Positions 21,272 to 61,996 of a stretch of DNA of 64,000 nt are shown here, one piece after another. This stretch comes from Pseudemcibacter aquimaris (GTDB taxonomy: Bacteria > Pseudomonadota > Alphaproteobacteria > Sphingomonadales > Emcibacteraceae), in NCBI RefSeq assembly GCF_028869115.1, contig NZ_CP079800.1:2951501-3015500 (forward strand), given 5' to 3'. Numbering within the stretch: the stretch's first letter is position 1; each line of letters starts with the position of its first letter. Under the pieces are notes generated by a model, which saw nothing but the letters and a program-made list of their open reading frames with translations, was not told the origin of the DNA and searched no databases. The position numbers and the translations under genes are program-made.

Positions 21272-21295
21272 TGCAAAATATGACGGGAGAGCAGA

Positions 21296-23386: not shown

Positions 23387-23394
23387 TCAAACCC

Positions 23395-23999: not shown

Positions 24000-24030
24000 G
24001 CAAAAATCTTAGACAATATTCTTGCAATGA

Positions 24031-24066: not shown

Positions 24067-24109
24067 TTATGGGTTTAAGAAAATCTGGAATTAATTTAGG
24101 GAGAGAAGC

Positions 24110-34940: not shown

Positions 34941-34997
34941 TACTCATTTACTTTCGTTTGTTGGTTTCATTCTCCTTACGTCTTTCATCACCCCTCA

Positions 34998-36944: not shown

Positions 36945-36959
36945 AATACTCTCCATCAT

Positions 36960-41219: not shown

Positions 41220-42260
41220 TTAAAATTCGGAAATAACGGTAACACCGTTACTTTCAAATTTATCCATATTGATCAAGGCATCAATGGATTGTTCAAGCGA
41301 TATTTCCTGACCGATTAGTTTCTCTGGCGCGAGGCTCCCCGCTGCAATCATATCCATCATTTCCGGGTATCTGTGCGCGGCCATACCGTGGCTTCCGATT
41401 ATTTCAAGTTCATTGGCAACCACAATATCCATTGGTAGTGGCGGTGTGCTTTGATCAGCCACCAAAAGTCCAACTTGAATATGTTTTCCACGTTTCTTTA
41501 GTGACCTGATTGAATTTTCGCACGTAATCGGATTTCCAAGCGCATCCATAGAAATATGAACACCACGTTTCGTAATTTCAAAGATGGCTTCTGATACATT
41601 GGCAGTTGTTTTCGCATTGATACCAAACTCAGCACCGATGGATTTTGCAAATTCAAGTTTTTGATCATCAATATCAATGGCAATAACGCGTGCACCATAG
41701 GCACGGGCAATCATAATTGCGGATAGGCCAACACCACCACAGCCATGAACCGCAACCCATTGACCATCAGCGACTTTACCCTGTTCCACAATACCGCGGT
41801 ATGATGTGATGAACCGACAACCAAGACTGGCGGCCGTTACAAAATTCATACTATCCGGCAATCTTACCAGATTTAAATCCGCCTGATGAATGCCGACATA
41901 TTCGGCAAATGATCCCCAATGGGTAAATCCGGGCTGGAACTGATTATCGCAAACCTGTTGATTGCCACTATCGCATTCAGGACAGTGACCACAACCACCA
42001 ACAAACGGCACCGTGACACGGTCACCGACTTGCCATTTTGTAACGTCTTTTCCAACCGCCTCGATAATACCGGCAAGTTCATGACCCGGCACATGGGGCA
42101 GTGGAATATCAGGATCATGACCAACCCAGCCATGCCAATCGCTGCGGCAGACGCCTGTTGCCATTACTTTTAAGACAACACCATGATTTTCCGGTGTTGG
42201 ATCGGCAACATTTTTGATTTTTGGCATGTCACCATATTGTTCAAACAGAACTGCTTTCAT
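41220..42260 (-). CDS. Zinc-dependent alcohol dehydrogenase family protein
   Basis: The 346-residue medium-chain dehydrogenase has catalytic-zinc ligands in [10 protein letters not shown] and [10 protein letters not shown], structural-zinc Cys cluster [17 protein letters not shown], and NAD(P) site [15 protein letters not shown]. It overlaps the upstream transketolase gene by one base (TAATG), so the two are made together. It may oxidise or reduce an aldehyde or alcohol made by the TPP enzyme or by ring catabolism; substrate unassigned. Confidence 0.9.
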
Positions 42261-44590
42261 TAATGCCTCTTTAATCTTCCGTGCGCGCCAACAATGGCGG
42301 CGCTGTCGATCATAAAGTGCTCATATAAATCAGGCAAGTCACCGGTTTGTCCGAAGGCTTCAACACCCAGCGGCACAACTGGATTACCACGAATACTACC
42401 AAGCCATGATAGATTTAACGGATGACCATCACAAACAGACACAACCATTGAATCACGTGGCAATTCATCCAATAATTTTTCAATATGAGACACTTTCGGG
42501 CGTTTATTAATCGCCGAACTTCTTCTTGATGCGGCCCAGTCACGATAAAGAATATCCGATGATGTTACCGCCATCACGGCCATATCCTTGTTTTCCTGTT
42601 GCAGATCCTGAACCGCGCCCATTACTTCTGGTGCAATGGCGCCCGCATAAATAATCACGCGAGATGTACTGCTTGTTGGTTTTCTTAACCAATAGGCACC
42701 CTTGACGATGTTATCTTTATCTTCTTCAGTAAGGGTTCTTGGGAGCTGTTCAATTTTTCTGGTTGATAGACGTAGATATACGGATGATCCATCCTCATCC
42801 TGCATGGTTTCAAAACCCCATTTCATCAGTACAGCTAACTCATCAGCATAAGATGGCTCAAGTGTCGTAAGGCCCGGTTGCGATATGCCAATAAGAGGCG
42901 TGCCGATCGATTGATGAGCACCGCCCTCTGGCCCAAGTGTAATACCGGATGGTGTCGCCACTAGCATAAATCGGGCGCCTTGGTACGCAGCATAATTAAG
43001 GGCATCAAGACCACGTGCAATGAACGGATCATAAAGTGTGCCCACAGGGAACAATCTTTCACCAAAATTTTTATGTGCAAGCCCAAGTTGCCCGAGCAAT
43101 GAAAACAGATTGTTTTCCGCAATCCCAAGTTCCATATGTTGCCCTGCTGGCCCTTTTTGCCAGATTTGTGAGCTTGGGATGCGTTTATCTTTAAATACGT
43201 CCGCTACATCTTCGCGGGCATAAAGTTTTCTTCTGTTCACCCACGGCCCAAGGTTTGTTGATGATGTCACATCCGGGCTTGTGGTAATAATGTGGTCCGC
43301 CAGTTCGCTGTCACCCTTTGCCAGTTCGAACATAATTTTTCCGAACGCTTCTTGCGTGGATTGAAGATCATCTTTTGGCGCCGGAATTTCCGGAATGCGG
43401 ATTGTCGCCGCTTTTTTCATGGTTTTATGGCGCTGCTGATAATCACAGTTTGAAATATAATGGGTTAATTTTTCCGCATGCTCTTCAACACCACCAAATT
43501 TATCCCATTCTGCGCCTTCCGGTACTTGTTGATCTTTCTGGAATTGTGCCATTTGGCCGACACTCATAAGACCCGCATGGTTATCCTTATGCCCTGCAAG
43601 CGGCAAGCCTTTACCCTTGACCGTGTAAGCAATAAAGCATTGTGGTTGTTCGCTGTCTGCTTCACCGAAAGCTTCGGTCAATGTTTCAAGATCATGACCG
43701 CCAAGGTTCGTCATCACTTCAGCAAGTTCCGGATCATCATAACTATCCAGAAATTCACCAATCCCGCTGGTGCCTTTTAATTCTTCTTCAAGTTGTTTAC
43801 GCCATTCAGCGCCCCCTTGATAGGTAAGCGCGGAATATAATTGGTTCGGACAATTATCAATCCAATTCAGGATCGCTTCACCGGCGGGACCATCTTGGGC
43901 CTTCATCAGTTTTTTACCGTATTTCAAGGTTGATACTTTCCAACCAAGACTATCAAAAACACCGCTGATCCGCTCAAATAAAGCATCATCAACAACACCA
44001 TCAAGGCTTTGACGGTTATAATCAATCACCCACCATAGGTTTCTTGCCTGATGTTTCCATCCTTCAAGTAGACTTTCAAAAATATTTCCTTCGTCAAATT
44101 CCGCGTCCCCCGCAAGCGCAATCATCCGGCCCGTCGCATTTTCATCATACCAGCCATGATCAACCATATAATCCTGCGTCAGCGTATTAAATAGCGTTGC
44201 GGCCACACCCATACCAACGGATCCCGTTGAAAAATCAACATCCGTTGTATCTTTTGTCATGGATGGGTATGACTGCGCACCACCAAAGGCACGGAAATTA
44301 TGCATCTTTTCCTGTGTCTGACGGTCCATCAAATACATGATCGCATGAAGAATTGGTGACGCATGCGGTTTAACCGCAACGCGGTCATTGGGACCAAGAA
44401 TATGAAAATACAGCGCCGTCATGATACTGGCTAGAGACGCACTTGATGCCTGATGACCACCGACTTTTAGCCCATCACGGCTTGGTCTTAAGTGATTGGC
44501 ATTGTGGATCATATAACTCGCGAGCCATAACACCTTCTTTTCAAGGAGTTTTAAGCTGCGAATGTCATCTTCTGTGGTAATTTTGGTCAT
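42260..44590 (-). CDS. AceE-like TPP enzyme (transketolase family)
   Basis: The 776-residue protein is a homodimeric E1/transketolase-like enzyme. The N-terminal half has a TPP-binding stretch ([21 protein letters not shown] near residue 160, then NRQSLDG). In the middle are [20 protein letters not shown]; the second half has the pyrimidine domain ([19 protein letters not shown]) and a transketolase C-terminal domain. It resembles pyruvate dehydrogenase AceE/transketolase in size but no E2 or E3 subunit gene is near. It is preceded by its own inverted repeat and followed immediately by an alcohol dehydrogenase. The substrate is unknown. Confidence 0.82.
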
Positions 44591-44615
44591 CTCTTGATCG
44601 TGTCCTTTTAAAAAA

Positions 44616-44631
44616 GTTACTGGTCAGTAAC
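44616..44631. promoter_or_regulatory. TetR-type inverted repeat upstream of the TPP-enzyme gene
   Basis: GTTACTG-GT-CAGTAAC is a perfect 7-2-7 inverted repeat 25 nt before the start of the transketolase-like gene, in the 74-nt gap after the PLP-enzyme gene. The pattern is typical of TetR-family operators. It suggests that the last two genes can be expressed separately from the genes upstream. Confidence 0.6.
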
Positions 44632-44664
44632 ATAATAAAACAGATCATGCCAAAGAGATGTTAA

Positions 44665-45813
44665 TTATGCAAGCAGATTCTTATTATCCTTTAACGCACC
44701 AATGACCGCGTCAATGTCATCATTGTTGTTATAAAAATGCGCTGATATTCTTAAATTACCATCTCTACAGGACGCGATAATGTTCCTTTCGGCCAGTGCC
44801 GCCACTAAAGCATATTCATCTGTTGATGCCACAGTGATCATAGCGCCATGCTTATTCGGGTCCATTGGTGACATCAGTTTTCCGCCAATTTCCTGAACTC
44901 CTTTTTTAAGACGCTCATTTAAAGCGGCAACATGTTCACGAATATTTTCCACGCCCACTTCCAGAATTAATTTTAGCCCCGCTTCCACTGCATAAAGATT
45001 AGGGACCGATGGCGTACCTTGTTCAAAACGACGTGCATTCGTTGCCGGTATATTATCATGAATAAGCATCGCATGGATATCTTCTTGCGCAAACCATCCG
45101 GTTTGTGTGGGTTCTGATTTGGTAATCAGGTCTTCGCGTACATATAAAAACCCAACACCCGCCGTTGAAAGCAAATATTTAAGCGACCCGCCAACGATGA
45201 AATCCACTTTCCATTCATTAACATCAATGGGAACCGCACCCACACCCTGATACGCATCCACCAAAATAAGTGCGCCATTCTTTCTGGCAATATCACGGAT
45301 CGCGGGAATATCCGCAAGTGCACCATTGCGGTAACACACAAGCGGCACGGCAACCAGTAAGGTTTCATCATCAACAAGACGGTCCAGATCATCAAGATCA
45401 ATCATACCGTCCGTTTCTTTCACATGCACCACTTCAGCGCCATGCTTTTTAAGTGCATGCCATGCTTGTGCCTCTGTCGGGAAAGCAAGATCGGTTGTTA
45501 CGATTTTCTTTCTTTTGCCACTGAAATCAAGGCTACTGGATATGGCGCTTAATGATGCGGATGCGGATGTGGTCACGGCCATCTCATCTGCCTTTGCTGA
45601 TAGTAAATCTGCAAATAAGGAACGCACTCGTTCCAAACGGTCACACCACCCAATCCAGTCCGCGCCGACCTCATGACGGTCTTTCAAATAACGCTGGAAA
45701 GCGCCTTCGACCTCTAACGACAAGGCCGCATAAGAACAGCTATTGATATAAACAGTATTTTTAAATATCGGGAAATGTTCCCGATAAGCACGCATTGATT
45801 TCATGGTTTTCAT
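44665..45813 (-). CDS. Class V aminotransferase-fold PLP enzyme
   Basis: The 382-residue fold-type I PLP enzyme belongs to class V (kynureninase / cysteine desulfurase / isopenicillin N epimerase clan). Visible: TTSASASLSAISSSLDF, the PLP Asp in LILVDAYQGVGAVPID, and the Lys of GGSLKYLLSTAGVGFLY. It lacks features that would single out kynureninase, but cleavage or epimerisation of an aromatic amino acid would fit its place in the anthraniloyl-CoA cluster. It starts 5 nt after the CDGSH-cupin stop, with AGGA ahead of the first ATG; ATGs 3 and 6 codons in are alternatives. Confidence 0.82.
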   Translation of the reverse strand: MKTMKSMRAYREHFPIFKNTVYINSCSYAALSLEVEGAFQRYLKDRHEVGADWIGWCDRLERVRSLFADLLSAKADEMAVTTSASASLSAISSSLDFSGKRKKIVTTDLAFPTEAQAWHALKKHGAEVVHVKETDGMIDLDDLDRLVDDETLLVAVPLVCYRNGALADIPAIRDIARKNGALILVDAYQGVGAVPIDVNEWKVDFIVGGSLKYLLSTAGVGFLYVREDLITKSEPTQTGWFAQEDIHAMLIHDNIPATNARRFEQGTPSVPNLYAVEAGLKLILEVGVENIREHVAALNERLKKGVQEIGGKLMSPMDPNKHGAMITVASTDEYALVAALAERNIIASCRDGNLRISAHFYNNNDDIDAVIGALKDNKNLLA

Positions 45814-45818
45814 AAATC

Positions 45819-46880
45819 CTAATAATTAATAGCCGGGCTGCCGGATGGATAAAATACACCCATCAACTGCATTCCACCTTCATCCGTACATTCAACAGAA
45901 TGGCCCTGACGGTGCGGCAGGAATAATACATCACCTGTCTTTACTTCCGTGACTTTAGTTCCGGTCCACATTTTCCCGTAACCCGTCAAAATGACGATCG
46001 CTTCTTCATATAAATGGCGGTGCATTGCCGCACGCGATTTCGGAATTTGACCAATGAATTGTGTTACCTCGTTTGACCCAACCTTTTTATCCACGAGTTC
46101 CTGATAAATGCGGTTCGCCATCACATTTGCTGTTGCCTCATCAAATGCAATGTATCGTTCTTCCTGTTCCGTCTGGAATGTTGTTTCATTGTCATCCGTA
46201 ACCGTTAAATCCGTTAGTAATGGACATGCGGTCGCATAAATCACCATTTCTTCATCCGTAATCACACGGAATTTTTCACCAGGGCGGACATAAAGACCCG
46301 CTTCTTTATCAACATTAAATTCGCGGCCTGCGATATCAACAGTACCCGCGCCGGATACGAAATACAGAACCGTATCGACCCCTTCATATTCCATCCACTT
46401 GGTTGTTCCAGCTGATACAGTTAAACGGTGAAGACTTAATTTAGTTGCACCGTCTTCCTTGGCGATGACCGGTTGATACCTTAAATTACCCACGACCGTA
46501 TCATTTTTATCATTTGGTGTCATAACATATGCACCACCATCGACAAGTGCTTTACCGTTTGCATCCTGATCAATTTGAACCGAATCTTTCATTGATAAGA
46601 TTTCAGCATCAGATGCTTCAGCGTAAACATCTTCAAGGTTATTATGGGCACCATCACAATATGGGCCTGATTTTGTTGCTTTACAGGCACAAAGAAGAAC
46701 ATCTTCCGTTTTCTCTGCCTTAAACACCATCGGTCTATGTTCCGTCCCCTTATGGGCACCATCACAGAATGGCTGTGTTTTACTTAATTTACAGGTACAC
46801 CATGCGTATTTCTTCCCTTCTTCAAGGCTTACCAGACACGGTTTATTTTCAACAACATATTCTACAGGATCATCAGACAT
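45819..46880 (-). CDS. Two-CDGSH iron-sulfur plus cupin fusion protein
   Basis: The ~353-residue protein starts with two CDGSH iron-sulfur motifs (CTCKLSKTQPFCDGAH near 25-40 and CACKATKSGPYCDGAH near 62-78), each with the three Cys and one His expected to hold a [2Fe-2S] cluster. After a spacer come two cupin-like halves (TVSAGTTKWMEYEG...VSGAGTVDI and MHRHLYEEAIVILTGYGKM...PHRQGHSVECTDEGG). The start is ATG 46880; it overlaps the preceding stop by 8 nt. Combining redox Fe-S and a cupin suggests a dioxygenase-like or redox-sensing protein in the pathway. Confidence 0.85.
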   Translation of the reverse strand: MSDDPVEYVVENKPCLVSLEEGKKYAWCTCKLSKTQPFCDGAHKGTEHRPMVFKAEKTEDVLLCACKATKSGPYCDGAHNNLEDVYAEASDAEILSMKDSVQIDQDANGKALVDGGAYVMTPNDKNDTVVGNLRYQPVIAKEDGATKLSLHRLTVSAGTTKWMEYEGVDTVLYFVSGAGTVDIAGREFNVDKEAGLYVRPGEKFRVITDEEMVIYATACPLLTDLTVTDDNETTFQTEQEERYIAFDEATANVMANRIYQELVDKKVGSNEVTQFIGQIPKSRAAMHRHLYEEAIVILTGYGKMWTGTKVTEVKTGDVLFLPHRQGHSVECTDEGGMQLMGVFYPSGSPAINY

Positions 46881-48921
46881 TTTCTTCACTTTCTTCAGCA
46901 AGTTTCACCAATAATGGCGACGGTCTCCACCACCTGTCCCCATATTTTGCGGCAAATTCATTTATTCTTTTTAACACGTATTTTAACCCAAGATGTTCTA
47001 CATAATGCATTGGCCCGCCCTTGTACCGCGGAAAACCAAATGCAAATGCATAAACAACATCAATATCACTTGTCCTTTGGGCGATGCCCTCTTCGACAAT
47101 TTTATACCCCTCATTAATAAGCGCGAAAATACATCTCTCTTCGATTTCTTTTGATGAAATATCGTCGCGCTTTATATTATATTTCTTGGCAAATTCTTCA
47201 GCGAGCTCTTCTACGAGCGCGTGTTTCTTTTTATCACGCCCATCATATTCATAAAAACCTGCCCCTGTTTTTTGACCCTTATGTCCGGCGTCCACCAATG
47301 CAGCATGCACACTGAACGCTCGCTTATCATAAGCATCATCTGATAGCTTTGATCTGGCCATCACACCAATATCAATCCCCGCCATATCAAGCATGCTGAA
47401 CATGCCCATGGGCATTCCAAAATCATACATGGTCTGATCAACCTGTTCGACACTTGCACCTTCAAGCAGCAAAAGTCCCGCTTCACGGCCATAACAGGAT
47501 GACATACGGTTCGCAATAAACCCATAACATACGCCGGAAAGAACTGGTGTTTTTCTAATTTTTTTCGCAAGCTTAAATGCGGTTGCGATTACTTCATTAG
47601 ATGTATTATCCGTTTTTACAATTTCCAAAAGCGGCATGATATGCGCCGGGCTAAAGAAATGAAGGCCGATGACATCTGAAACGCGGCTTGTTGCCGTTGC
47701 CATTTCATCAATATCCAGGAATGATGTGTTGGTCGCGATAATCGCACCATCTTTGGCCACGTTATCCAGTTTTGACAACACTTCTTTCTTGATGTTCATA
47801 TCCTCGAATACGGCCTCAATCATCAGATCGCTATCTGATAAATCATCATAAGACGTCGTTACCGATAACGCGTTCATGGCGGCCGCCATTTGTGTGTCCG
47901 TCATTCTGCCTTTACTGACATTGGATGCATAAATTTTTTCAATTTTTTGTTTCGCCGCATTTGCAGCGTCACCCGTAATTTCAAGAAGCGTGACCGCCAT
48001 ACCGGAACTTAAGAAATTGACGGCAATACCGCATCCCATAATGCCACCACCAACCACGGCGACGTTATTGATATCTCTTGTGGCCGTATTTTTATCAATG
48101 CCATCTACTTTCGCGGCTTGACGTTCCGCGAAAAAAAGATGCCTTTGCGCTTTTGAATGGGAACTTGCCACCAGTTCCATAAATTTTTCACGTTCGAACT
48201 CTATCCCTGCATCAAAATCAAGATCACATGCCACTTTTACGGCATCAATAGCAGCAAAAGGCGCAAGAAACCCGCGCGATTTTCTGGCAATTTTCTTTTT
48301 AAAGTCAGCAAATAATTCTTCGCCCGCGTCACACTTTAAATCGCGAATGCGTCTAACGGTTTTATCTTTTGCAAAATTTATAGCGTCACATAACAAATCA
48401 TCCGACACCAAATCAGCCACCCCGAGTGACAATGCCTTTTCGGCCTTAATTGGTTTTCCGGACGTAATCATTTCAAGGGATTTTTCAGCACCGATTAAAC
48501 GCGGCAATCGTTGCGTGCCACCTGCACCAGGCATAAGTCCCAAATTCACTTCCGGCAGACCGACTTTTGCGCGCCCGTCCATCACACGGTAATGACAGGC
48601 AAGCCCCACTTCAAACCCACCGCCCAAAGCCGTTCCATGCATCGCGGCAATCAGTGGTTTGGAGAATTCATCCATTTCCGCCATCAGTTCCGGTAACGTA
48701 GGGCTTACAGGTGGTTTGCCAAATTCGGTAATATCAGCACCCGCACAGAATGTTCTTCCCGCACAATGGATCACGACGGCATTTACAGTATCGTTATTGT
48801 TTAATTCGCTTAAGGCTTTTGAAACCCCGTCGCGAACCGCATGCGAAAGCGCATTTACGGGCGGGTTATCAATAGTAACAACTGCGATATTGTCATTTAT
48901 ACTGGTGCTTACGATGCTCAA
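46873..48921 (-). CDS. Enoyl-CoA hydratase / 3-hydroxyacyl-CoA dehydrogenase fusion
   Basis: The 682-residue protein is a bifunctional beta-oxidation enzyme. N-terminal crotonase domain (residues 1-190): oxyanion motif AGADITEF, HGTALGGGFEVGLACHY, and the catalytic-glutamate region LPEVNLGLMPGAGGTQRL. C-terminal part (from ~290): NAD site VAVVGGGIMGCGIAVNFL, 3HCDH signature VIGLHFFSPAHIMPLLEIV and the C-terminal domain. Closest to the FadJ/FadB-type fusion without thiolase. It overlaps the thioesterase gene by 4 nt and should hydrate and oxidise ring-derived CoA intermediates. Confidence 0.92.
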   Translation of the reverse strand: MSIVSTSINDNIAVVTIDNPPVNALSHAVRDGVSKALSELNNNDTVNAVVIHCAGRTFCAGADITEFGKPPVSPTLPELMAEMDEFSKPLIAAMHGTALGGGFEVGLACHYRVMDGRAKVGLPEVNLGLMPGAGGTQRLPRLIGAEKSLEMITSGKPIKAEKALSLGVADLVSDDLLCDAINFAKDKTVRRIRDLKCDAGEELFADFKKKIARKSRGFLAPFAAIDAVKVACDLDFDAGIEFEREKFMELVASSHSKAQRHLFFAERQAAKVDGIDKNTATRDINNVAVVGGGIMGCGIAVNFLSSGMAVTLLEITGDAANAAKQKIEKIYASNVSKGRMTDTQMAAAMNALSVTTSYDDLSDSDLMIEAVFEDMNIKKEVLSKLDNVAKDGAIIATNTSFLDIDEMATATSRVSDVIGLHFFSPAHIMPLLEIVKTDNTSNEVIATAFKLAKKIRKTPVLSGVCYGFIANRMSSCYGREAGLLLLEGASVEQVDQTMYDFGMPMGMFSMLDMAGIDIGVMARSKLSDDAYDKRAFSVHAALVDAGHKGQKTGAGFYEYDGRDKKKHALVEELAEEFAKKYNIKRDDISSKEIEERCIFALINEGYKIVEEGIAQRTSDIDVVYAFAFGFPRYKGGPMHYVEHLGLKYVLKRINEFAAKYGDRWWRPSPLLVKLAEESEENV

Positions 48922-49349
48922 GTTGCTGCATCCTCCGTCATATAGGGTTGCATGGCTTCTTTCACAAATTCAGGAAGCGGGTGGCTTTTCATGATGTTGC
49001 CTTTTCCTTTGATGTAAACGAGTTTTACATCAGCGCTTAAGATTTCTTTTTCGCCGACTTTGGCCTCAATAAATACAGAAAATGATGCTCGACCAATTTT
49101 TGTTACCACTAATGACCATTCAACATAATCTTCCAGTTCAGCCGGGCTTTTAAAATTTACATTTAAATTGACGGTTGGGACGCCGTAGTCCGTATCAACA
49201 ATCATTTCCTTATATGAAAATTTTACGACTTCGGCGAAGAAATCCTCAACGATATCATTTATCATTTCCACCAGACGCGGGTAATATGTGATCCCGGCGG
49301 CATCGGTTTGCCCAAATCGAATTTTTCTCGTGACTTTAAAAACGGCCAT
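48918..49349 (-). CDS. Acyl-CoA thioesterase (hotdog fold, 4HBT type)
   Basis: The 143-residue protein has the 4HBT pattern: RKIRFGQTDAAGITYYPRLVEMINDIVEDFF with the catalytic Asp/Gly region, then NVNFKSPAELEDYVEWSLVV. It lies 21 nt after the ring-hydroxylating fusion protein, with GAGGGA before the ATG. In aromatic-CoA gene clusters such enzymes release stalled CoA esters. Confidence 0.9.
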   Translation of the reverse strand: MAVFKVTRKIRFGQTDAAGITYYPRLVEMINDIVEDFFAEVVKFSYKEMIVDTDYGVPTVNLNVNFKSPAELEDYVEWSLVVTKIGRASFSVFIEAKVGEKEILSADVKLVYIKGKGNIMKSHPLPEFVKEAMQPYMTEDAAT

Positions 49350-49370
49350 TTGCTATTCCCTCAAAAGATA

Positions 49371-51716: not shown

Positions 51717-51760
51717 TTTTGTTCCTCTCTTGTGAAAGGAATACAGTAACCTCATTTATC

Positions 51761-51770
51761 TTACATGTAA
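51761..51770. promoter_or_regulatory. Candidate MarR operator TTACATGTAA (site 1)
   Basis: A perfect 10-bp palindrome lies in the 120-nt spacer between the divergent monooxygenase operon (start 51716) and the MarR gene (start 51837). The same palindrome occurs at 58817. MarR family members usually bind such dyads near their own promoter. Confidence 0.65.
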
Positions 51771-51836
51771 ACTAATATTGCACACTTGCAGTTTTTATTG
51801 TTCCCGATATAGTGCACTGACGGAGGACTAAAAAGA

Positions 51837-52298
51837 ATGGTTGAAAGTAAATACACAGAACGACAAAGAGAAAGCCTCAAACTCTGGATTGAGCTGCTTC
51901 GATATTCCAATAAATTGGAACAGATTATCGATGACAAGCTGCGCCAGAATTATGGCCAGAATATCTCGCGTTTTGATGTGCTTTCACAATTGGTTCGTGA
52001 AAATGGTGACGGCTTAACCGTTGGTGAACTTGCGTCACGCTTGATCGCATCCAAAGGGAATATCACGGGCCTGATTGACCGCATGCAAAAAGACGGCCTT
52101 ATCGTTAAAACCGCGAAAAAAGATGACCGCCGCAGTTTCATCATCACCATCACCGATAATGGCACTAAGCTGTTTACTGAAATGGCCGAAAATAATGCCC
52201 AGTGGGTGGAAAATGCCTTAAGTGCCCTTGATATGGAACATATGAAAGAATTCACAAATTTCTTAAATCAGTCCCGTGCAACACTCGACGAAGATTAA
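51837..52298 (+). CDS. MarR family transcriptional regulator 1
   Basis: The 153-residue regulator has the winged helix with recognition region VGELASRLIASKGNITGLIDRMQKDGLIVKTAKKDDRRSFIITITDNG (the DDRR wing). ATG preceded by GGAGG at 10 nt. It is divergent from the monooxygenase fusion operon and ends with a 4-nt overlap on the convergent CoA ligase gene. Probably the local repressor responding to an aromatic CoA thioester or acid, as known for BadR- and HcaR-type relatives. Confidence 0.92.
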   Translation: MVESKYTERQRESLKLWIELLRYSNKLEQIIDDKLRQNYGQNISRFDVLSQLVRENGDGLTVGELASRLIASKGNITGLIDRMQKDGLIVKTAKKDDRRSFIITITDNGTKLFTEMAENNAQWVENALSALDMEHMKEFTNFLNQSRATLDED

Positions 52299-53863: not shown

Positions 53864-53864
53864 G

Positions 53865-54329
53865 TTACTCGCTTAAATTTTGTCTAACCTGCATCAGGAT
53901 ATTGGTGAATTTGATGATATCGTCTTCTTCTATGCCGATAAATGCTTTTTTATAAACATCACTGGCCAGTGCGCGCAAGTCCGATAACATGCCCGTTCCT
54001 TTTTCGGTGATAAAAACTTCGATCACGCGGTTATCATCCGGAAATGGTTTTCTGATGATCAAGCCATCATTTTCCATGCGGATCAAGATGCGGGTAATGG
54101 TAGAAATTTTGGTCACAGATCTTCTGGAAAGCTCACCAACCGTGCTTGGATTCTTATCGCCAAGCAACATCAAAATACGCCAGCTTGGTTGATCCATATC
54201 CAGATCTTTTAATCGTTCTGTTGTCTGCTGCGTATATGTCGCGGACGTTCTGTTTAAATTATAAAGCGGGTAATCATCTAAAATGAAATCAGGATGATCC
54301 GGCCCATGCAAACTCACCTTTTCCTGCAT
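53865..54329 (-). CDS. MarR family transcriptional regulator 2
   Basis: The 154-residue regulator has a winged helix (VGELSRRSVTKISTITRILIRMENDGLIIRKPFPDDNRVIEVFITEKG). It starts inside the 3' end of the iorB-like gene (41-nt overlap), with GGAGGT 11 nt before the ATG, so the overlap is probably real. It is a different sequence from MarR 1 (about 30% alike by eye), giving the cluster two regulators. Confidence 0.9.
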   Translation of the reverse strand: MQEKVSLHGPDHPDFILDDYPLYNLNRTSATYTQQTTERLKDLDMDQPSWRILMLLGDKNPSTVGELSRRSVTKISTITRILIRMENDGLIIRKPFPDDNRVIEVFITEKGTGMLSDLRALASDVYKKAFIGIEEDDIIKFTNILMQVRQNLSE

Positions 54330-55779
54330 CTTTTTCTGAAACCTCCGTCATTTTCTGGTCTTTCAGAACTTCGTTAAACTCTATCCCCCGCTCACTTAAT
54401 AGGGCAGCATCACGTATCCTTATAATTGTTTCTGCCGTGATTGTTTCATCATTTTCAATTAACGCCATAATGCGTGAAAAGCGATTGATGCCCCGTTCAT
54501 GGGTACTGCCATACCCTTTAATTAAACGCGGACATTTTGAAATTTCAAGTGCTAATTCACTATCGCCTTGTTTTGCCTTTACAATTTCAAGCCATGCATT
54601 GATGCGCGTCATTTCTTCTTTATACCGTAATGTTTTACGTCTCATGCCCCTTAAACTCGCAACAAAGCGTAATATTAAATACCCGATTATTGTTTTTGGG
54701 CGGATAATGCGGCCTTTCTTGAAAAATCTGGAAAAAAACCTTTTCCAAAACGCAGAGTTTTTCATCATCTGGCCAAGCCCTGCCGGCAGCGTATGGCAAA
54801 ATTCTTCATATCTGGGATGGAAAAAATCATGCCCGTACCAGATTTGATGATCACCTGCGCGAACTTCGGATGATATTTTTTCATTTCGTTCCACGCGCGT
54901 TTTCAAATCGGCGACCCTGATGATATCTTCAAATGACATCCAAAGCGCCAAATGTCTTGCTGTTTCTGTTAAAAGCGTCGGATCATTAATCCCTTCAAGC
55001 TTGGCAAGATATTCATCTGCATATTCCACATCCTGATAATCCACTAATTTATGCACACCATATGTAATGATTGCTCGTGCCTCTTCTGGGAAATCTTTAA
55101 CACTATCAAGTAATTTTACTGGGCTTTGGTTTTCCTGTTTTTCGATACTTCCATTCTGCGCTGCATTAAAACCAAGCTCAAAACCAGCGAGGTTACTTTC
55201 CACCGCACGACCAGATTTTTTAATGGTTGCTTCGAATGTTTCACGTTTAAACGGCAATGCCCCTGATCCGGCAAGAGCGCCAAATAATACACTTGAAATA
55301 ACGCTTGATGATTTAAGCACCATTTCATTCATATCAAACAGAATTAAATTTTTAGCGGCCTTTTTAATGGCATCACGCACCGCATCACTATCCAACCGCC
55401 CATCGCCCATATTTTCTTTTTCTGAAATGGCAAAAACACGGTGATCCGATGCGATTAAGGTTGTTCTGTCCTGTGTTACAATGCCGCGGTTGACGGCGCG
55501 TCCCGCTTCCATTAATTCGGCGGCGATACAAATATCAACATCACCGGATACTGGCATTAAAGCAAGGACCGGTTCTTGATCTTTAATATTATTTTCAGGA
55601 TAAATTTCAATGGCATAAATGGTTGTCCCTGTTCGCTGCGCCACACCGGCGATGGCGGTATATTGGGCGCGGTATCCGTTGGCTTCGGCCAGTTCCACAA
55701 TCCAGTTACTAAGCACGCCGCCGCCCTGTCCGCCAAGGGCAGAAACGGCAATAGAAATTCTGTCACGGGAATTTGTCAT
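54289..55779 (-). CDS. Indolepyruvate oxidoreductase beta-subunit family protein, extended
   Basis: The 496-residue protein begins with the gamma/beta domain of 2-oxoacid:ferredoxin oxidoreductases (SIAVSALGGQGGGVLSNWIVELA, TAIAGVAQRTGTTIYAIEIYP) over residues 1-~190. A ~300-residue C-terminal extension (DUF6537-like: LAKLEGINDPTLLTETARHL, RRKTLRYKEEMTRINAW) makes it much longer than classical IorB (~200). It overlaps the alpha-subunit gene by 4 nt. Together they should oxidise an aryl-pyruvate to an aryl-acetyl-CoA. Confidence 0.87.
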   Translation of the reverse strand: MTNSRDRISIAVSALGGQGGGVLSNWIVELAEANGYRAQYTAIAGVAQRTGTTIYAIEIYPENNIKDQEPVLALMPVSGDVDICIAAELMEAGRAVNRGIVTQDRTTLIASDHRVFAISEKENMGDGRLDSDAVRDAIKKAAKNLILFDMNEMVLKSSSVISSVLFGALAGSGALPFKRETFEATIKKSGRAVESNLAGFELGFNAAQNGSIEKQENQSPVKLLDSVKDFPEEARAIITYGVHKLVDYQDVEYADEYLAKLEGINDPTLLTETARHLALWMSFEDIIRVADLKTRVERNEKISSEVRAGDHQIWYGHDFFHPRYEEFCHTLPAGLGQMMKNSAFWKRFFSRFFKKGRIIRPKTIIGYLILRFVASLRGMRRKTLRYKEEMTRINAWLEIVKAKQGDSELALEISKCPRLIKGYGSTHERGINRFSRIMALIENDETITAETIIRIRDAALLSERGIEFNEVLKDQKMTEVSEKDAGKGEFAWAGSS

Positions 55780-57905
55780 AATAGCCCCGCTTTCTTTAAT
55801 CTAGTCATGCGTTTCTTTTCTGCGCCATGTTGCATCCAACCAATTACATTACGTCTGAATTTATCCTTAAATTTATCCCATGATGATGGATTATAAATAA
55901 GCGATACTTTTGAAAATGACGGACATAATACCTCTGCATGAGCGACTTCACCACAATGGCCACATCCCACGCAGCTATTATCCACATAGGCAACAGGATC
56001 GGATTTTAAGGGATCTGGATTTTCTTTTAACGTTAGTGACGGACACCCTGACAAGCGTATGCAGCTATGATCACCTGTGCATGTTTCGCTATCCACATAA
56101 AACCGGTCTCGCACCATTCGTTCGCCGGATTTAACATTGTTATTAAAAATCGGTTTTTCACGGCGCTGCCTGTTGAGCATACATTCGCCCTGCGCGACAA
56201 TAACCTTTGGCCCTTTAAAGCTGGTCGTCATGGCGTCCAATAGCGTGCTATGCATTTCTACAAGGTCATATGTACGCACCGTTTTCACCCATTTAACGCC
56301 CACACCCTTAACGGCGTCAGCAATAGAATGCTGGGTACTGCGTTTTTCATGTTCCCCTTTTGATGAAAGCAGGTCCTGTCCGCCCGTGGCCGCAGAATAG
56401 TTATTATCAACAATCATCAACACATTGTCGGTCTGATTAAAAACCGCATTTCCGACACCACTGGTCAGTCCGTTATGCCAAAATCCGCCGTCCCCCATGA
56501 TGGAAAGCGTGCGTTTATTCGCATCTTTATTAAAAGCTGATGCCCCCGCCCACCCAAGGCCGTAACCCATTGTGGTGTTGCCAATATTAAAAGGCGGCAA
56601 AATAGAAAATAAATGACAGCCGATATCCGCACTAATATGAAGGTCGCCGATTTCTTTTTGTACCAATTGAATGGCTGTGAACATCGGCCTTTCCGGACAT
56701 CCCGTACAAAATCCAGCCGGACGCGGCGGCACATCAACCATATCAAACTTTTTAACATCGAATGATTTTTCACCAATCAATCCATGTTGTCGGGCAAATT
56801 TTTCAAGGCCCGCCTTTATGACATCGGTGGTATATTCCCCAATATCACTGATCATATCTTTACCATGCAACAAGACGCTAGATTTCGCCTTACGCAAAAT
56901 ATTGCTCAGTTCATGTTCGATATATTCGGGATGCCCTTCTTCCACAAGAAGGACCGCTTCCTTGCCACTGGTAAATTCAAGAATTTCATCATCAATGACC
57001 GGATAGGTCACATTCATCACATAAATAGGAATATCCGTATTGCCAAATTCATCACTTAACCCCAGTAATTCAAGGGCGCGTATCAAACTGTTATATAGGC
57101 CGCCCTGAACAATGATGCCGATGTCTTTTCTATCACCACCAAGCAATTCATTCAGTTTATTATCTTTGATGAATTTCACCGCAGCGGGCCAGCGGTTTTT
57201 TAGTTTTTCATGTTCATGAAGATAATTGGCAGGCGGTAAAACGATCCGTGACGTGTCCCTGTTCGGGTTTTCCATGGCATCCTGTAATTTAAATTCAGGT
57301 TCCACATTATCCTTGGCGGTAAAGCGGCCATATACATGACAAGCCCTGATACGCAGTTCAAGCATCACGGGTGTATTTGACGCTTCAGAAAGTTCAAAAC
57401 CGGTTTCAACCATATCAACGATCGACGTTAAATTCGGACGCGGATCTAGCAACCACATTTGCGATTTCATGGCAAAAGCATGGCTTCGTTCCTGCATGAT
57501 TGAGGAACCCTCGCCGTAATCTTCGCCGACAATAACCAGCGCACCACCCGTCACCCCGCCGGATGATACATTGGCAAGCGCGTCACTGGCCACGTTGGTT
57601 CCAACTGTGGATTTCCAGGTCACAGCCCCCCTTAACGGATAATTCACCGACGCCGCCAGCATAGCGGCGGCTGTGGCCTCGGACGCAGATGTTTCAAAAT
57701 GAACATTAAGTTCATTCATAATCTCTTCCGCATCCGCCAAAACATCCATCAAATGGGATATGGGGGATCCTTGATACCCGCCCACGTAAGAAACACCGGA
57801 CTGGAGAAGAGCTTTCGTGACGGCTAATATGCCCTCGCCACGAAAGTCTTCCCCTTTACCCAGTCTTAATTTTTCAACTTCTTTTTTAAAGGACCGTTCC
57901 GCCAT
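55776..57905 (-). CDS. iorA: Indolepyruvate ferredoxin oxidoreductase alpha subunit
   Basis: The 709-residue protein has an N-terminal pyrimidine-binding domain (QGSPISHLMDVL, FETSASEATAAAMLAASVNYP), a TPP-binding region (IGNTTMGYGLGWAGASAFN, IMGDGGFWHNGLTSGVGNAVFN, VDNNYSAATGG) and a C-terminal iron-sulfur region (CTGDHSCIRLSGCPSL and CVGCGHCGEVAHAEVLCPS). The first of these lacks one usual Cys spacing, so at least one complete [4Fe-4S] site is expected. It follows the cyclase gene by 6 nt and is coupled to the beta subunit. It should produce an aryl-acetyl-CoA and reduced ferredoxin from an aryl-pyruvate. Confidence 0.92.
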   Translation of the reverse strand: MAERSFKKEVEKLRLGKGEDFRGEGILAVTKALLQSGVSYVGGYQGSPISHLMDVLADAEEIMNELNVHFETSASEATAAAMLAASVNYPLRGAVTWKSTVGTNVASDALANVSSGGVTGGALVIVGEDYGEGSSIMQERSHAFAMKSQMWLLDPRPNLTSIVDMVETGFELSEASNTPVMLELRIRACHVYGRFTAKDNVEPEFKLQDAMENPNRDTSRIVLPPANYLHEHEKLKNRWPAAVKFIKDNKLNELLGGDRKDIGIIVQGGLYNSLIRALELLGLSDEFGNTDIPIYVMNVTYPVIDDEILEFTSGKEAVLLVEEGHPEYIEHELSNILRKAKSSVLLHGKDMISDIGEYTTDVIKAGLEKFARQHGLIGEKSFDVKKFDMVDVPPRPAGFCTGCPERPMFTAIQLVQKEIGDLHISADIGCHLFSILPPFNIGNTTMGYGLGWAGASAFNKDANKRTLSIMGDGGFWHNGLTSGVGNAVFNQTDNVLMIVDNNYSAATGGQDLLSSKGEHEKRSTQHSIADAVKGVGVKWVKTVRTYDLVEMHSTLLDAMTTSFKGPKVIVAQGECMLNRQRREKPIFNNNVKSGERMVRDRFYVDSETCTGDHSCIRLSGCPSLTLKENPDPLKSDPVAYVDNSCVGCGHCGEVAHAEVLCPSFSKVSLIYNPSSWDKFKDKFRRNVIGWMQHGAEKKRMTRLKKAGLL

Positions 57906-57911
57906 AAAGGA

Positions 57912-58691
57912 TTATTTATCCTTTAACGCGAGTACGCGCAGCGGGCTACCGGAACCATTTTCAATTTTTAATGGCGGCACGATAAGGATCGAACCCGTCG
58001 CCGGAAGCTTATCCAGATTGGTAAGGCTCGCGAGACCATATTTATTGGCCCCATGCATTAATGAATGCGCAGGAAACGGAATTTCAAACATCGCGGCCGC
58101 ACCGGCGTCTGTACCAACGGTTTCAACACCCCAACCCATGATGTCTTTTTCAATTAAATACTGAATACAACATGCTGATGGTCCCGGTGAATGCGGACCA
58201 TTTTCATCCGCATTTAAGAAATTATCACGGCCAACCAAACCAAGCCAGTCCGTACGCATCAGCACCCATGAACCCGCTGTAATTTCACCGTGTTCTGCTT
58301 CCCATGCCTGCACACCTTCTTTGGTCAAAAGGTAATCTTTATCTGCTGCTGTTTCTTTTGAACAGTCAATCACAAACGCAGGGCCAACCAGATTTTGTGC
58401 CGGCAATGTATCCGTGCCACCGTCCTGATAATCTTTACCACTGACCCAATGGATCGGGCTATCGAAATGGGTGCCAGTATGTTCACCCATATGAATAACG
58501 TTCCAATACCACGCTGGTCCGTCTTCGTCATATTTCGAAATTTGCTCCATTGAAAATGGTGCTGAATTTTTGGCAATTTCTTCCGGCAGATGGATGATCG
58601 GTGTGTCAGGTCCTAACACTTGCGTTAAGTCAACAACTTCGATATCACCAGTCCCCAGTCCTGTTGCCAGATCGGCTAATGTATTTGACAT
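57912..58691 (-). CDS. Cyclase family protein (kynurenine formamidase-like metal hydrolase)
   Basis: The 259-residue protein is of the cyclase/KynB fold (PF04199): DLTQVLGPDTPIIHLP, metal site MGEHTGTHFDSPIHWVSG (HxGTHxDxP pattern), and PFPAHSLMHGANKYGLASLTNLDKLPATG at the end. The family holds arylformamidases and other amide or lactone hydrolases. First gene of a minus-strand operon that continues into iorA, iorB, MarR 2 and the CoA ligase. Formamidase activity on an N-formyl-aromatic would fit tryptophan-derived substrates, but is not shown by the sequence. Confidence 0.87.
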   Translation of the reverse strand: MSNTLADLATGLGTGDIEVVDLTQVLGPDTPIIHLPEEIAKNSAPFSMEQISKYDEDGPAWYWNVIHMGEHTGTHFDSPIHWVSGKDYQDGGTDTLPAQNLVGPAFVIDCSKETAADKDYLLTKEGVQAWEAEHGEITAGSWVLMRTDWLGLVGRDNFLNADENGPHSPGPSACCIQYLIEKDIMGWGVETVGTDAGAAAMFEIPFPAHSLMHGANKYGLASLTNLDKLPATGSILIVPPLKIENGSGSPLRVLALKDK

Positions 58692-58816
58692 AGAATCCTC
58701 CCTAAAATTTTGTCTTAATAGATACTATAAATACGAATCATTTGATTTTGCAAATAATATCATAAATTTGAAACATATTTTTATTTTACTTGCGCCTAAG
58801 CTTTTCTCTTTTTACT

Positions 58817-58826
58817 TTACATGTAA
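58817..58826. promoter_or_regulatory. Candidate MarR operator TTACATGTAA (site 2)
   Basis: The perfect palindrome is identical to site 1 at 51761. It lies 20 nt before the SDR start codon and 125 nt upstream of the divergent cyclase start. The two flanks also share TGAATATT/CTAATATT after the dyad. Confidence 0.65.
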
Positions 58827-58846
58827 TGAATATTTTAGGGGCGAAG

Positions 58847-59596
58847 ATGGCACTATCAGGAAAACATGCAGTGGTAACCGGTGGCGGAACCGGTATTGGC
58901 CTTGCGATCACCAATGCTTTGGTAATTGGGGGCGCCGATGTAACGATTATGGGGCGTAACCTTGAACGCCTTGAAAAAATCGCCCAGAAAAATGATAAAA
59001 TCCACGCCGTTCAAATCGACATCATGAATGAACAAAGTGTTCAAAATGCCATCCAAAAGACAAGTGAATTCAAACCCATTGATATTCTTGTGAATAATGC
59101 AGGTGATGCGGACAGCGGACCTTTCGAAAAAATGGATTTGGACCGCTGGAAATTTATGATTGATCTTAATCTAACCGGAACTTATCTGGTCACCAGTGCC
59201 GTAATGACTGACATGCTGGAACGCGGTGCGGGTAACATCATCAATGTGGCGAGCACCGCCGGATTGCATGGTTATGCCTATACATCCGCCTATTGCGCGG
59301 CGAAACATGGCGTCGTGGGGTTAACAAAATCGCTCGCCCTTGAAATGGCAAATAAGGGGATCTCCGTAAACGCTTTATGCCCCGGATATGCCAGAACCGA
59401 CCTTGTCATGAATGCGGTTAAAAATATCATGGCGGCAAAAGGAAAAACCGAAGAAGAAGCCATCAATGGCATGTTGGCCCCAAGCGGGCAACAAAGATTA
59501 ATCGAGCCTGATGAAATCGCAGAACAAGCCATCAAAATATGCGAACAGAATTTAAACGGTGAAATCATTATCATCGACGGGGAAGAAAGAGAATAA
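58847..59596 (+). CDS. Short-chain dehydrogenase/reductase
   Basis: The 249-residue SDR has NAD(P) motif [16 protein letters not shown] (LVNNAGDAD) and the catalytic Ser-Tyr-Lys in [23 protein letters not shown]. Probably a 3-hydroxyacyl-CoA dehydrogenase. The start is ATG 58847 preceded by AGGGGCGAAG; an upstream TTG frame from 58790 crosses the operator palindrome. First gene of the plus-strand operon, ending 2 nt before the enoyl-CoA hydratase gene. Confidence 0.92.
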
Positions 59597-59598
59597 TC

Positions 59599-60408
59599 AT
59601 GAACCCAGAAACATTCAATCCGGAACATTTCTTATGGAATTTCAAAGACGGCATCGCCACCATCAAGCTTGACCGACCGGAAAGAAAAAATCCGCTTACC
59701 TTTGATAGCTATGCTGAATTACGCGATACATTCCGTGATCTGGTTTACACCAAAGATGTAAAAGTGGTTATTTTTGCCCCGAACGAAGGCAATTTTTCAT
59801 CAGGCGGTGATGTCCATGATATTATTGGGCCACTCGTTAAAATGGATATGACGGAACTGTTGGATTTCACACGCATGACCGGCGATCTTGTGAAAGCCAT
59901 CCGTGCTTGTCCGCAACCGGTTATTGCCGCGGTTGATGGTATTTCCGTGGGCGCTGGCGCGATTATCCCTATGGCAAGTGATCTACGCATCGGAACACCG
60001 GAAAGTAAGACAGCGTTTCTATTTAACAAAGTGGGACTTGCCGGATGTGATATGGGTGCCTGTGCCATATTACCACGCATTATCGGACAGGGGCGCGCAT
60101 CAGAACTATTATACCTTGGGCGTAGCATGAGCGGCGAAGAAGGATACAATTGGGGATATTTCAATCAGCTTGTATCCGGTGACGAATTGATCGCCGCAGC
60201 GGAAAAGATGGCATCAAAAATCGCATCTGGCCCAACATTTGCCAATGGCATCACCAAAAACCAGCTGAATATGGAATGGGATATGAGCATCGACGCGGCC
60301 ATAGAAGCAGAAGCACAAGCGCAAGCAATTTGCATGCAAACCAAAGATTTCGAACGCGCATATCATGCATTCGTGAATAAAGAAAAACCAGTATTTGAAG
60401 GTGACTGA
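59599..60408 (+). CDS. Enoyl-CoA hydratase/isomerase family protein
   Basis: The 269-residue crotonase has the oxyanion-hole motifs [10 protein letters not shown] and [11 protein letters not shown]. At the usual catalytic-glutamate positions it reads [20 protein letters not shown], where an Asp is present but the canonical Glu pair is not obvious, so it could be a ring-opening hydrolase or isomerase rather than a plain hydratase. This subtype with CDMGAC recurs in aromatic-CoA ring-cleavage clusters. It overlaps the acyl-CoA dehydrogenase start by one base. Confidence 0.88.
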
Positions 60409-61583
60409 TGAATATCAACGTGGATCAAACATATCTCGATTGGCCCTTTCTGGAAGATCACCATCGCACACTCGCTATTGATCTGGAAAAATGGTGTCAG
60501 GAACATCTAAACAACATTGACCATTGTGATGTTGATCGCGCCTGTAAGGATATTCTATCAAAACTAGCCAGTGGTGGTTGGCTTCAATATGTCGTTCCAA
60601 AAGAATATGGCGGCATTCATGAAAATCTGGATGTCAGATCATTATGTCTGATCCGTGAAACACTTGCCCGTCATGACGGTCTCGCGGATTTCGTATTCGC
60701 CATGCAGGGCCTTGGCAGCGGCACAATCACACTATTTGGTTCAGATGACATAAAAAGAGAATATTTGCCCGCGGTTGCAAGCGGCAAAAAAATGGCGGCA
60801 TTTGCCCTTACCGAACCGGAAAGTGGTTCTGATGTCGCCAATATGACAACCACAGCCGAACTTAATGATGATCATTATGTCATTAACGGTGCAAAGACAT
60901 TCATATCCAATGGTGGTATAGCCGATTATTATGTTCTTTTTGCAAGAACTGGTGACGCACCGGGTGCAAAAGGATTATCAGCCATTATTCTTGATGCTGA
61001 TGCCAGCGGATTAGAAATCACAGAACGGATAGAGGTCATCGCACCACATCCACTAGCGACACTTGAATTTAACAATGTGAAGATTCCTGTTTCTAAAAGT
61101 TTAGGAAACAGCGGCGACGGTTTCAAAGCCGCAATGGCAACACTTGATATATTCCGATCAACCGTTGGTGCGGCGGCCCTGGGGTTTGCAAGACGCGCCT
61201 TATCAGATGCGGTTAAACGTACCAATGAACGCCATCTTTTTAATGCGCCACTTCATAATTTACAACTCGTTCAAGGCATGCTTGCCGACAGTGCCACAGA
61301 TATTGATACAAGTGCGCTACTGATTTACCGTGCAGCGTGGACGAAAGATACCAAACCGGGCCGCGTCACCCGTGAAGCCGCCATGGCAAAAATGCACGCA
61401 ACAGAAACCGCACAGCAGGTCATTGACCGCGCCATCCAGATTTTTGGTGGACAAGGTGTCGTCAGCGGTGTCAAAGTAGAAGAATTATATAGGGAAATTC
61501 GTGCGCTTAGAATATATGAGGGGGCGACCGAAGTTCAAAAAGTGGTCATCGCCAGGGAAACATTAATACAGTTCGAGGAATAA
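60408..61583 (+). CDS. Acyl-CoA dehydrogenase
   Basis: The 391-residue flavoprotein has FAD/substrate signatures [28 protein letters not shown]-like region [30 protein letters not shown] and the catalytic Glu in [16 protein letters not shown]. Dehydrogenation of a ring-derived or pimelyl-type CoA ester would fit. Its stop at 61583 lies 5 nt before the RidA gene. Confidence 0.93.
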
Positions 61584-61588
61584 TAAAA

Positions 61589-61996
61589 ATGAAGCATCTT
61601 TTGCCAGATGGCTGGCCACGACCAAAAGGATATTCAAACGCAATCAGTGTTAAAAACGGCCGCACTATTTATGTGGCGGGACTTGTGGGTTGGAACGAAC
61701 GCGAAGAATTTGAAAGTGATAACTTAACCGATCAATTTAGAAAAACACTTGAAAATACCGTTGCCGTGCTTGCGTGTGATAATGCAGGGCCAGAACATAT
61801 CGTGCGCATGACATGGTATATTACCGACCGCGAAGAATATCTTTCAAACTTAAAAGAAATGGGAGCCATTTACCGCGATGTTATGGGGAAAAATTTCCCC
61901 GCAATGGCATGTGTCGAGGTATCTGCATTAATGGAATCCCAAGCTAAAATTGAAATTGAAACAACCGCCGTGGTTGAAGCAGAAAATGGGGAATAA
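61589..61996 (+). CDS. RidA-family protein (YjgF/YER057c/UK114)
   Basis: The 135-residue protein is of the RidA superfamily: GWPRPKGYSNAISVKNGRTIYVAGLVGWN, FRKTLENTVAVLACDNAGPEHIVRMTWYITD, and FPAMACVEVSALMESQAKIEIETTAV. A conserved Arg of RidA (in the R-x-x-x-E region) may be replaced, as there is no RxCxxx..Q pattern: it reads AMACVEVSALM. This suggests one of the Rid subgroups other than archetypal RidA. RidA proteins hydrolyse enamines/imines to ketones and ammonia, which is just the chemistry the ring intermediate 2-amino-5-oxocyclohex-1-ene-carboxyl-CoA would need. Confidence 0.88.
   Translation: MKHLLPDGWPRPKGYSNAISVKNGRTIYVAGLVGWNEREEFESDNLTDQFRKTLENTVAVLACDNAGPEHIVRMTWYITDREEYLSNLKEMGAIYRDVMGKNFPAMACVEVSALMESQAKIEIETTAVVEAENGE

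Follow-up and report, generated by a model that had tools for sequence, protein, structure and literature searches.

Which compounds enter the aromatic degradation pathway encoded at positions 41220-61996 of the window, that is, of the whole 64,000-nucleotide stretch analysed here (positions 2,951,501 to 3,015,500 of contig NZ_CP079800.1, assembly GCF_028869115.1) from the marine-type alphaproteobacterium Pseudemcibacter aquimaris, whose genome is a single contig of 3.37 Mb? A first-pass annotation made from the sequence had recognized an anthranilate gene set around a fusion of FAD monooxygenase and old yellow enzyme (OYE), enlarged by further genes into a tryptophan/indole module; all genes it named were recovered by open reading frame (ORF) and domain searches with their families and domains holding, together with two MarR genes absent from its list. 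The cluster is interpreted here, as a moderately probable reading, as a two-entry aerobic 2-aminobenzoyl-CoA degradation regulon.

At the first entry, an AMP-forming ligase would activate anthranilate. At the second, an isatin hydrolase would open isatin to isatinate (2-aminophenylglyoxylate), a 2-oxo acid borne directly on the ring, which an IorAB-like enzyme (alpha subunit IorA, beta subunit IorB) would oxidatively decarboxylate onto CoA, yielding 2-aminobenzoyl-CoA at no cost of ATP; phenylglyoxylate oxidoreductases, which give benzoyl-CoA, are the analogy for this step. The fusion would then hydroxylate and reduce the ring of 2-aminobenzoyl-CoA, and a short-chain dehydrogenase/reductase (SDR), a crotonase, an acyl-CoA dehydrogenase, RidA, the hydratase/dehydrogenase and a thioesterase would complete the breakdown. 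All the catalytic activities are inferred from sequence, most of all what IorAB acts on.

The cyclase-family protein of the cluster is an isatin hydrolase homologue, with the conversion of isatin to isatinate as its predicted activity, because of its best structure match and the published signature residues. In phmmer comparisons with isatin hydrolases it reaches 344 bits to 4J0N, 313 to 5NNA and 298 to 5NMP, with about 26 bits or less to kynurenine formamidases (26 to 4COB). The signature sites are described as Mn ligands in H-x3-H-x-D and catalytic H79, D193 and H207, together with a W-x-W/F pocket and a GLAS or GLQC motif (PMC6117287); by pattern and alignment, the window protein has the full set of metal ligands and of catalytic histidines and aspartate, with WYW at 61, HTGTHFDSPIHW, the D/H pair and GLAS at 219. 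All 17 of the 17 homologues from fusion neighbourhoods conform to the same patterns. Four more homologues, from plasmids, conform to those for W-x-W/F, metal and GLAS/GLQC, the search pattern for the D/H pair having missed or misplaced it in three. The isatin hydrolases of Labrenzia and Ralstonia, as characterized in PMC6117287, are alike in sequence, metal site and signature motifs, whereas the window homologue sits in a CoA-thioester pathway.

Isatin hydrolase and IorAB make up a single cassette, since the hydrolase and IorA genes lie at most 500 bp apart in 48 of the 55 genomes holding both (at most 7 kb in three more, separate contigs in four) in an order-level sample of 296 genomes, in which fusion and IorA were counted at E<=1e-100 and the hydrolase at E<=1e-40. 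The fusion is found in 102 of these genomes, IorA in 59 and the hydrolase in 56; all IorA-bearing (59/59) and all hydrolase-bearing (56/56) genomes carry the fusion, four having IorA without the hydrolase and one the hydrolase without IorA. The chance of the 59 IorA genomes falling inside the 102 is ~1e-34, and ~5e-11 for the 23 genera with IorA, all among the 36 fusion genera of 79, neither value being corrected for the tree. When nine phylogenetically independent pairs differing in IorA are drawn on the fusion tree, 78 rows of which bear both traits, the hydrolase follows the direction of IorA in a mean of 8.7 (median p 0.004). Outside the order (class sample of 380 genomes, fusion counted at >=670 bits on the fusion model), IorA occurs in 57, the fusion in 70 and both in 40 (Fisher 7e-22), which is a strong association, not containment. 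At the level of loci, 145 fusion neighbourhoods were read, 10 duplicates and three contig fragments of genus members being left out; 20 contain IorA, 16 of these also the hydrolase, which is present in one of the 125 others. Like these distributions, gene content, family membership, the hydrolase signature and a palindrome shared by two promoters can be read directly from the sequence; the cluster comprises the following features (paired bit values are score and cut-off).

41220-42260, minus strand: Zn-dependent alcohol dehydrogenase (PF00107, PF08240).
42260-44590, minus strand: thiamine pyrophosphate (TPP) enzyme, homodimeric E1/transketolase-like (transketolase/PDH-E1-like; aceE 175/859.9 bits; best PDB match 1L8A).
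44665-45813, minus strand: class V pyridoxal phosphate (PLP) enzyme (PF00266; TIGR01814 116.7/246.4 bits; best PDB match 5B7S).
45819-46880, minus strand: double-CDGSH/bicupin protein, the CDGSH-cupin (two CDGSH motifs, HRHLYEE, PHRQGH).
46873-48921, minus strand: enoyl-CoA hydratase/3-hydroxyacyl-CoA dehydrogenase, FadJ-like (PF00378, PF02737, PF00725).
48918-49349, minus strand: 4HBT-type thioesterase (PF13279).
49371-51716, minus strand: FAD-monooxygenase/OYE fusion, 781 aa (NF006101 over the full length, 1002.3/1078 bits).
51761-51770: palindrome TTACATGTAA, candidate operator in the divergent promoter of fusion and MarR1, exact in the window.
51837-52298, plus strand: MarR-family regulator 1 (MarR1), divergent from the fusion (PF12802/PF01047).
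52295-53863, minus strand: AMP-forming ligase, predicted 2-aminobenzoate-CoA ligase (best PDB match 4WV3, 269 bits).
53865-54329, minus strand: MarR-family regulator 2 (MarR2), within the isatin/ligase unit (PF01047).
54289-55779, minus strand: IorB-like subunit, POR domain and DUF6537 (PRK08312 605.3/348 bits).
55776-57905, minus strand: IorA-like subunit, with TPP and ferredoxin-like cysteines (PF02775; TIGR03336 308.8/650.9 bits).
57912-58691, minus strand: isatin hydrolase homologue (Cyclase, PF04199; 344 bits to 4J0N; signature motifs).
58817-58826: palindrome TTACATGTAA in the divergent promoter of isatin hydrolase and SDR, exact in the window.
~58847-59596, plus strand: SDR (PF00106; ORF listed from TTG at 58790).
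59599-60408, plus strand: crotonase (PRK08258 471.7/330 bits).
60408-61583, plus strand: acyl-CoA dehydrogenase (PF00441, PF02770, PF02771).
61589-61996, plus strand: RidA-family enamine/imine deaminase (PF01042).

Spacing points to four transcription units: hydrolase-IorA-IorB-MarR2-ligase on the minus strand and, divergent from it, SDR-crotonase-acyl-CoA dehydrogenase-RidA on the plus strand, then the minus-strand unit running from the fusion through thioesterase, hydratase/dehydrogenase, CDGSH-cupin, PLP enzyme and TPP enzyme to the alcohol dehydrogenase, with MarR1 divergent from the fusion on the plus strand. Within the genus the association of these genes is more than chance, because the same-genus loci on long contigs (L063-L066 and L069, five of nine) hold every gene from alcohol dehydrogenase to crotonase. 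Contig ends truncate three of the nine, among them G421, which is also without the thioesterase, and the G443 locus is without IorAB, hydrolase, second MarR, thioesterase, PLP enzyme, CDGSH-cupin and alcohol dehydrogenase. A MarR2-type gene adjoins IorB also in L080, L081 and L083.

The core of the pathway is already known. Ligase, fusion, SDR, crotonase, acyl-CoA dehydrogenase, RidA and hydratase/dehydrogenase make up the 2-aminobenzoyl-CoA (anthranilate) repertoire, as the first-pass annotation had recognized, and ligase, fusion and beta-oxidation-type enzymes are alike in the accounts of Azoarcus evansii (review PMC4539516) and Arthrobacter Rue61a (PMC3534580); while the pathway as laid out there begins with free anthranilate via the ligase, the window cluster adds the isatin hydrolase/IorAB entry. 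The fusion, probably a 2-aminobenzoyl-CoA monooxygenase/reductase by its sequence, carries both halves as well as GGGPGG, GDA and HAAHGY, and shares 45% identity with its counterpart on the Rue61a plasmid; its length of 781 aa stands as originally given, the longest ORF coding for 794 aa and GAGAGGA lying just upstream of the 781-aa start. The SDR is conserved beside it across fusion loci, and a MarR1 homologue is close to it in many. The ligase matches the anthranilate-CoA ligase 4WV3 ahead of benzoate-CoA ligase (250 bits) and shares 52% identity with the gene that directly precedes the Rue61a plasmid fusion, an assignment made by similarity. Two expressed Rue61a ligases, one of them plasmid-borne, are described as showing anthranilate-CoA ligase activity (PMC3534580), and gene order suggests that the plasmid-borne one is the gene preceding the fusion.

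In a quickly built tree of 87 two-domain fusions, with SH-aLRT as its only support and with the single-domain salicylyl-CoA and 3-hydroxybenzoyl-CoA hydroxylases and the Azoarcus evansii protein left out, the window fusion falls into supported clades with Pseudoteredinibacter, then Ruegeria, Paracoccus and Marinibacterium, a host-discordant pattern that suggests horizontal transfer; the Rue61a fusion lies outside these clades on a long branch of unsure placement. The fusion stretches of G544, G519 and G427 each contain a single in-frame TGA, which may mark a pseudogene, an error of assembly or an artefact of the match. G210, G300 and G378 carry IorA and no full fusion, with lone OYE proteins among the top scorers on the fusion model, and their fusion is possibly split into separate genes; G104 and G113 have similar OYE scores and are without IorA.

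The ligase was counted in fusion genomes at a threshold of 1e-120. It is present in 30 of 59 genomes with IorA versus 39 of 43 without (Fisher 1.5e-5), and in 22/44 versus 34/37 among genomes at least 90% complete; 98 of the 102 fusion genomes have ligase and/or IorA, and genus g285 comprises nine ligase-only members, three IorA-only members and one with both. Independent pairs differ in opposite directions in 4.0, in the same direction in 0.1 and not at all in 4.9. Among loci with flanks of at least 7 kb outside the window genus, IorA occurs in none of 52 with and 14 of 59 without the ligase (Fisher 7e-5), a per-locus statistic that relatedness inflates. These counts bear on an unlikely alternative in which hydrolase and IorAB would detoxify or use isatin separately, isatinate being turned into free anthranilate and the pathway entered only via the ligase. 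The Variovorax region iadC-K2, by its name without iadA/iadB, is described as giving anthranilate (PMC12633357) and the window genus retains the ligase, as this alternative would have it; yet 29 of the 59 IorA-bearing fusion genomes are without a ligase match (22/44 at >=90% completeness), and in the order sample IorA is confined to fusion genomes.

A somewhat less likely possibility is that IorAB uses indolepyruvate from tryptophan to form indoleacetyl-CoA, which would make the cluster a tryptophan module. Family names say indolepyruvate, and IorB passes its subfamily cut-off (PRK08312); IorA, however, misses the indolepyruvate-oxidoreductase equivalog TIGR03336 with less than half of the cut-off score, its regular partner is the isatin hydrolase, and no gene of the cluster evidently uses indoleacetyl-CoA. 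The tryptophan/indole route of the first-pass annotation is not supported, given this result, the cyclase being an isatin hydrolase homologue and the PLP enzyme failing the kynureninase model, while its linked extension of the core is retained as far as the CDGSH-cupin. By sequence evidence, entry of isatin fits the data better than entry through tryptophan and indolepyruvate.

That the fusion acts on salicylyl-CoA, with salicylate degraded by a gentisate-like path, is very unlikely: the NCBIfam model of the fusion bears that name and some relatives (Caballeronia) have a gentisate-dioxygenase-like cupin beside it, but the OYE half, the match of the ligase to anthranilate-CoA ligases and RidA speak for the amino compound, and gentisate dioxygenase is not among the families found in the cluster. 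The kynurenine route, with the cyclase as kynurenine formamidase and the PLP enzyme as kynureninase converting tryptophan to anthranilate, is highly improbable, for beyond shared superfamilies, weak TIGR01814 and TIGR03035 matches and kynureninase 1QZ9 ranking second among structures matched by the PLP enzyme (95 bits), both proteins stay far under their cut-offs (116.7/246.4 and 29.3/223.05 bits) and the cyclase has GLAS where formamidases have I(L/I)E.

Several observations weigh against the two-entry reading and have to be set beside it. The fusion falls 76 bits short of NF006101, the model for bifunctional salicylyl-CoA 5-hydroxylase/oxidoreductases. Outside the order 17 of 57 IorA genomes are without the fusion, and among 39 genomes with compared positions IorA and the fusion are no more than 15 kb apart in 22. 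The trade-off between ligase and IorA is not significant after phylogenetic correction (median p 0.125), some ligase absences may be assembly gaps, and four of the 102 fusion genomes, one of them 66% complete, have neither gene. With the window genus included, the exclusion weakens to p 0.04 over 117 long-flank loci and 0.15 over all 145, because this genus has both genes. Furthermore, a search for indole monooxygenase with the Alloyangia protein at E 1e-20 came out negative for all 11 window-genus genomes searched, and no PF00866 match, the Rieske beta subunit, is found anywhere in the window genome.

Neither an indole monooxygenase nor a Rieske IadDE enzyme could thus be retained as the isatin source here, no match to either being found in the genome. 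Two PF00848 Rieske alpha proteins are encoded outside the cluster, one immediately to the left of the window (L240), the other at 0.21 Mb; the former (L240 1-4824) adjoins a pair of flavoproteins, of which one resembles amine oxidases by Pfam. Elsewhere the cassette does occur with an indole monooxygenase, which is found among the 59 IorA genomes in 11 at >=50% identity and in one at 34%. A plasmid of Alloyangia pacifica combines fusion cluster, isatin hydrolase, IorAB and an indole-monooxygenase/flavin-reductase/SDR set within ~17 kb, with a ligase homologue (46%) 7 kb beyond that stretch. In L242 and L243, from the host's own family, flavin reductase, indole monooxygenase, SDR, an AraC-type gene, an amine-oxidase-like flavoprotein, IorB, IorA and isatin hydrolase share 10 kb. 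The Alloyangia monooxygenase matches 7Z4X with 608 bits, 9J0H (styrene/indole monooxygenase family) with 205 and styrene monooxygenases with at most 142; 7Z4X we take to be the Acinetobacter indole monooxygenase. The amine-oxidase-like flavoprotein would oxidise 3-hydroxyindolin-2-one to isatin, such monooxygenases being described as converting indole to 3-hydroxyindolin-2-one (PMC6221969, section 8).

Further arrangements of the cassette were seen. In Caballeronia SBC1, IorAB occurs with thioesterase, fusion and cyclase, and a ligase is not annotated in 30 kb of a plasmid gene table that is incomplete; plasmids of Sulfitobacter and Paracoccus bring hydrolase, MarR and IorAB together, the stretch shown being free of the fusion. 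Flavoproteins of 488-508 aa next to the fusion in L080, L090 and L115, considered as oxygenases, are OYE-family proteins. IorAB is accompanied by a cupin and a fumarylacetoacetate-hydrolase gene in Caballeronia, Shinella and Ruegeria (L225 20733-21860, L229 10598-11722, L224 6797-7921), perhaps a second lower pathway; the L225 cupin, which was tested, is gentisate/5-aminosalicylate dioxygenase-like, below both cut-offs.

Within the cluster, the CDGSH-cupin might be guessed to supply isatin. It contains two complete CDGSH motifs and one HxHx3E...H cupin site, and it tracks IorA: when tested in 40 of the 59 fusion genomes with IorA and 40 of the 43 without, it was found in 17/40 versus 2/40, one of the two partial (Fisher 1.3e-4, uncorrected). 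It adjoins IorB in G606, lies on the same contig less than 8 kb from the hydrolase in G453 and G467, and is absent genome-wide from G443 (99% complete), which is without IorA and hydrolase; among the 40 tested genomes with IorA, it occurs in one of eight with an indole monooxygenase versus 16 of 32 without (p 0.11). Its predicted structure has a mean pLDDT of 67, with most of the CDGSH part below 50, and its closest structural neighbours are bicupins, oxalate decarboxylase and quercetin dioxygenase among them (TM ~0.4), a predicted fold that, being found also in seed storage proteins, does not settle its function. In the open-licence literature a single paper was found that contains both CDGSH and cupin, and its title and abstract concern something unrelated. 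It is improbable, though conceivable, that IorAB is an isatinate:acceptor oxidoreductase, the missing function of iadAB, and at the same time the CDGSH-cupin a new self-sufficient iron-sulfur/cupin oxygenase supplying isatin without an indole monooxygenase.

Across the 136 fusion neighbourhoods from other genera, nothing matches the TPP enzyme, and the alcohol dehydrogenase is matched once, at 29%. That these two enzymes belong to the pathway is unproven because they are seen as neighbours only in the genus.

Regulation may tie both entries together. The palindrome TTACATGTAA is a candidate MarR operator, and since both divergent promoters share it, one regulon is suggested. It is exact in both, with one 1-mismatch copy elsewhere in the last 26 kb of the window, where the signal alone is weak (two matches to the 12-mer versus 0.5 expected). 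Within the genus it recurs with at most one mismatch in 9/9 fusion/MarR1 gaps and in 6/7 SDR gaps that the loci cover (in G443 the gap is SDR/ligase), margins of 60-80 bases around the gaps being allowed, and six one-mismatch copies lie elsewhere in these loci; such conservation could reflect conserved upstream sequence in close relatives. A sigma-70 promoter scan performed no better than chance.

The nearest described systems are the iad auxin loci, whose iadA and iadB, reported as exclusive markers of iad-like loci (PMC9613470), are by their description probable homologues of IorA and IorB; a gene annotated as kynurenine formamidase and MarR control are likewise shared (PMC9613470; PMC12633357). 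In PMC9613470, the one open-licence paper found to contain both isatin and indolepyruvate ferredoxin oxidoreductase, isatin and isatinic acid are named as intermediates, a route that PMC12633357 revises; the end product described is anthranilate, and the pathway descriptions consulted give iadAB no role. Unlike the iad loci, the window genome is without the Rieske beta subunit (IadDE) and has the fusion cluster attached. Neither isatinate or isatinic acid joined with IorAB nor an isatin hydrolase/IorAB entry into 2-aminobenzoyl-CoA was found in the open-licence literature. In the iif/ind systems of indole degradation (PMC6221969), the likeness is to the relatives L223, L242 and L243, with indole monooxygenase, flavin reductase and SDR beside the cassette; IifA is described there as making anthranilate directly, with no isatin gene, and an indole monooxygenase was not matched in the window genus.

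In the remainder of the window, three consecutive PQQ-dependent dehydrogenase genes (18433-26200; second and third 85% identical), PrkA kinase, DUF444 and SpoVR genes side by side (32082-36959), two adjacent penicillin-amidase-family genes next to a TonB-dependent receptor (11260-18145) and two NHL-type proteins, weak relatives of ScyF far under its cut-off (26598-27803, 37686-38729), were observed.

If the two-entry reading is true, isatin carbon enters as a CoA thioester, which would give a concrete, assayable answer on isatin in the indole pathway, treated in a 2018 review as an open question with isatin hydrolase worth testing (PMC6221969). Aerobe genes of this IorA subfamily annotated as indolepyruvate oxidoreductase would then be misnamed, and a function would be offered for iadA/iadB, a gene pair of auxin- and indole-degrading bacteria.

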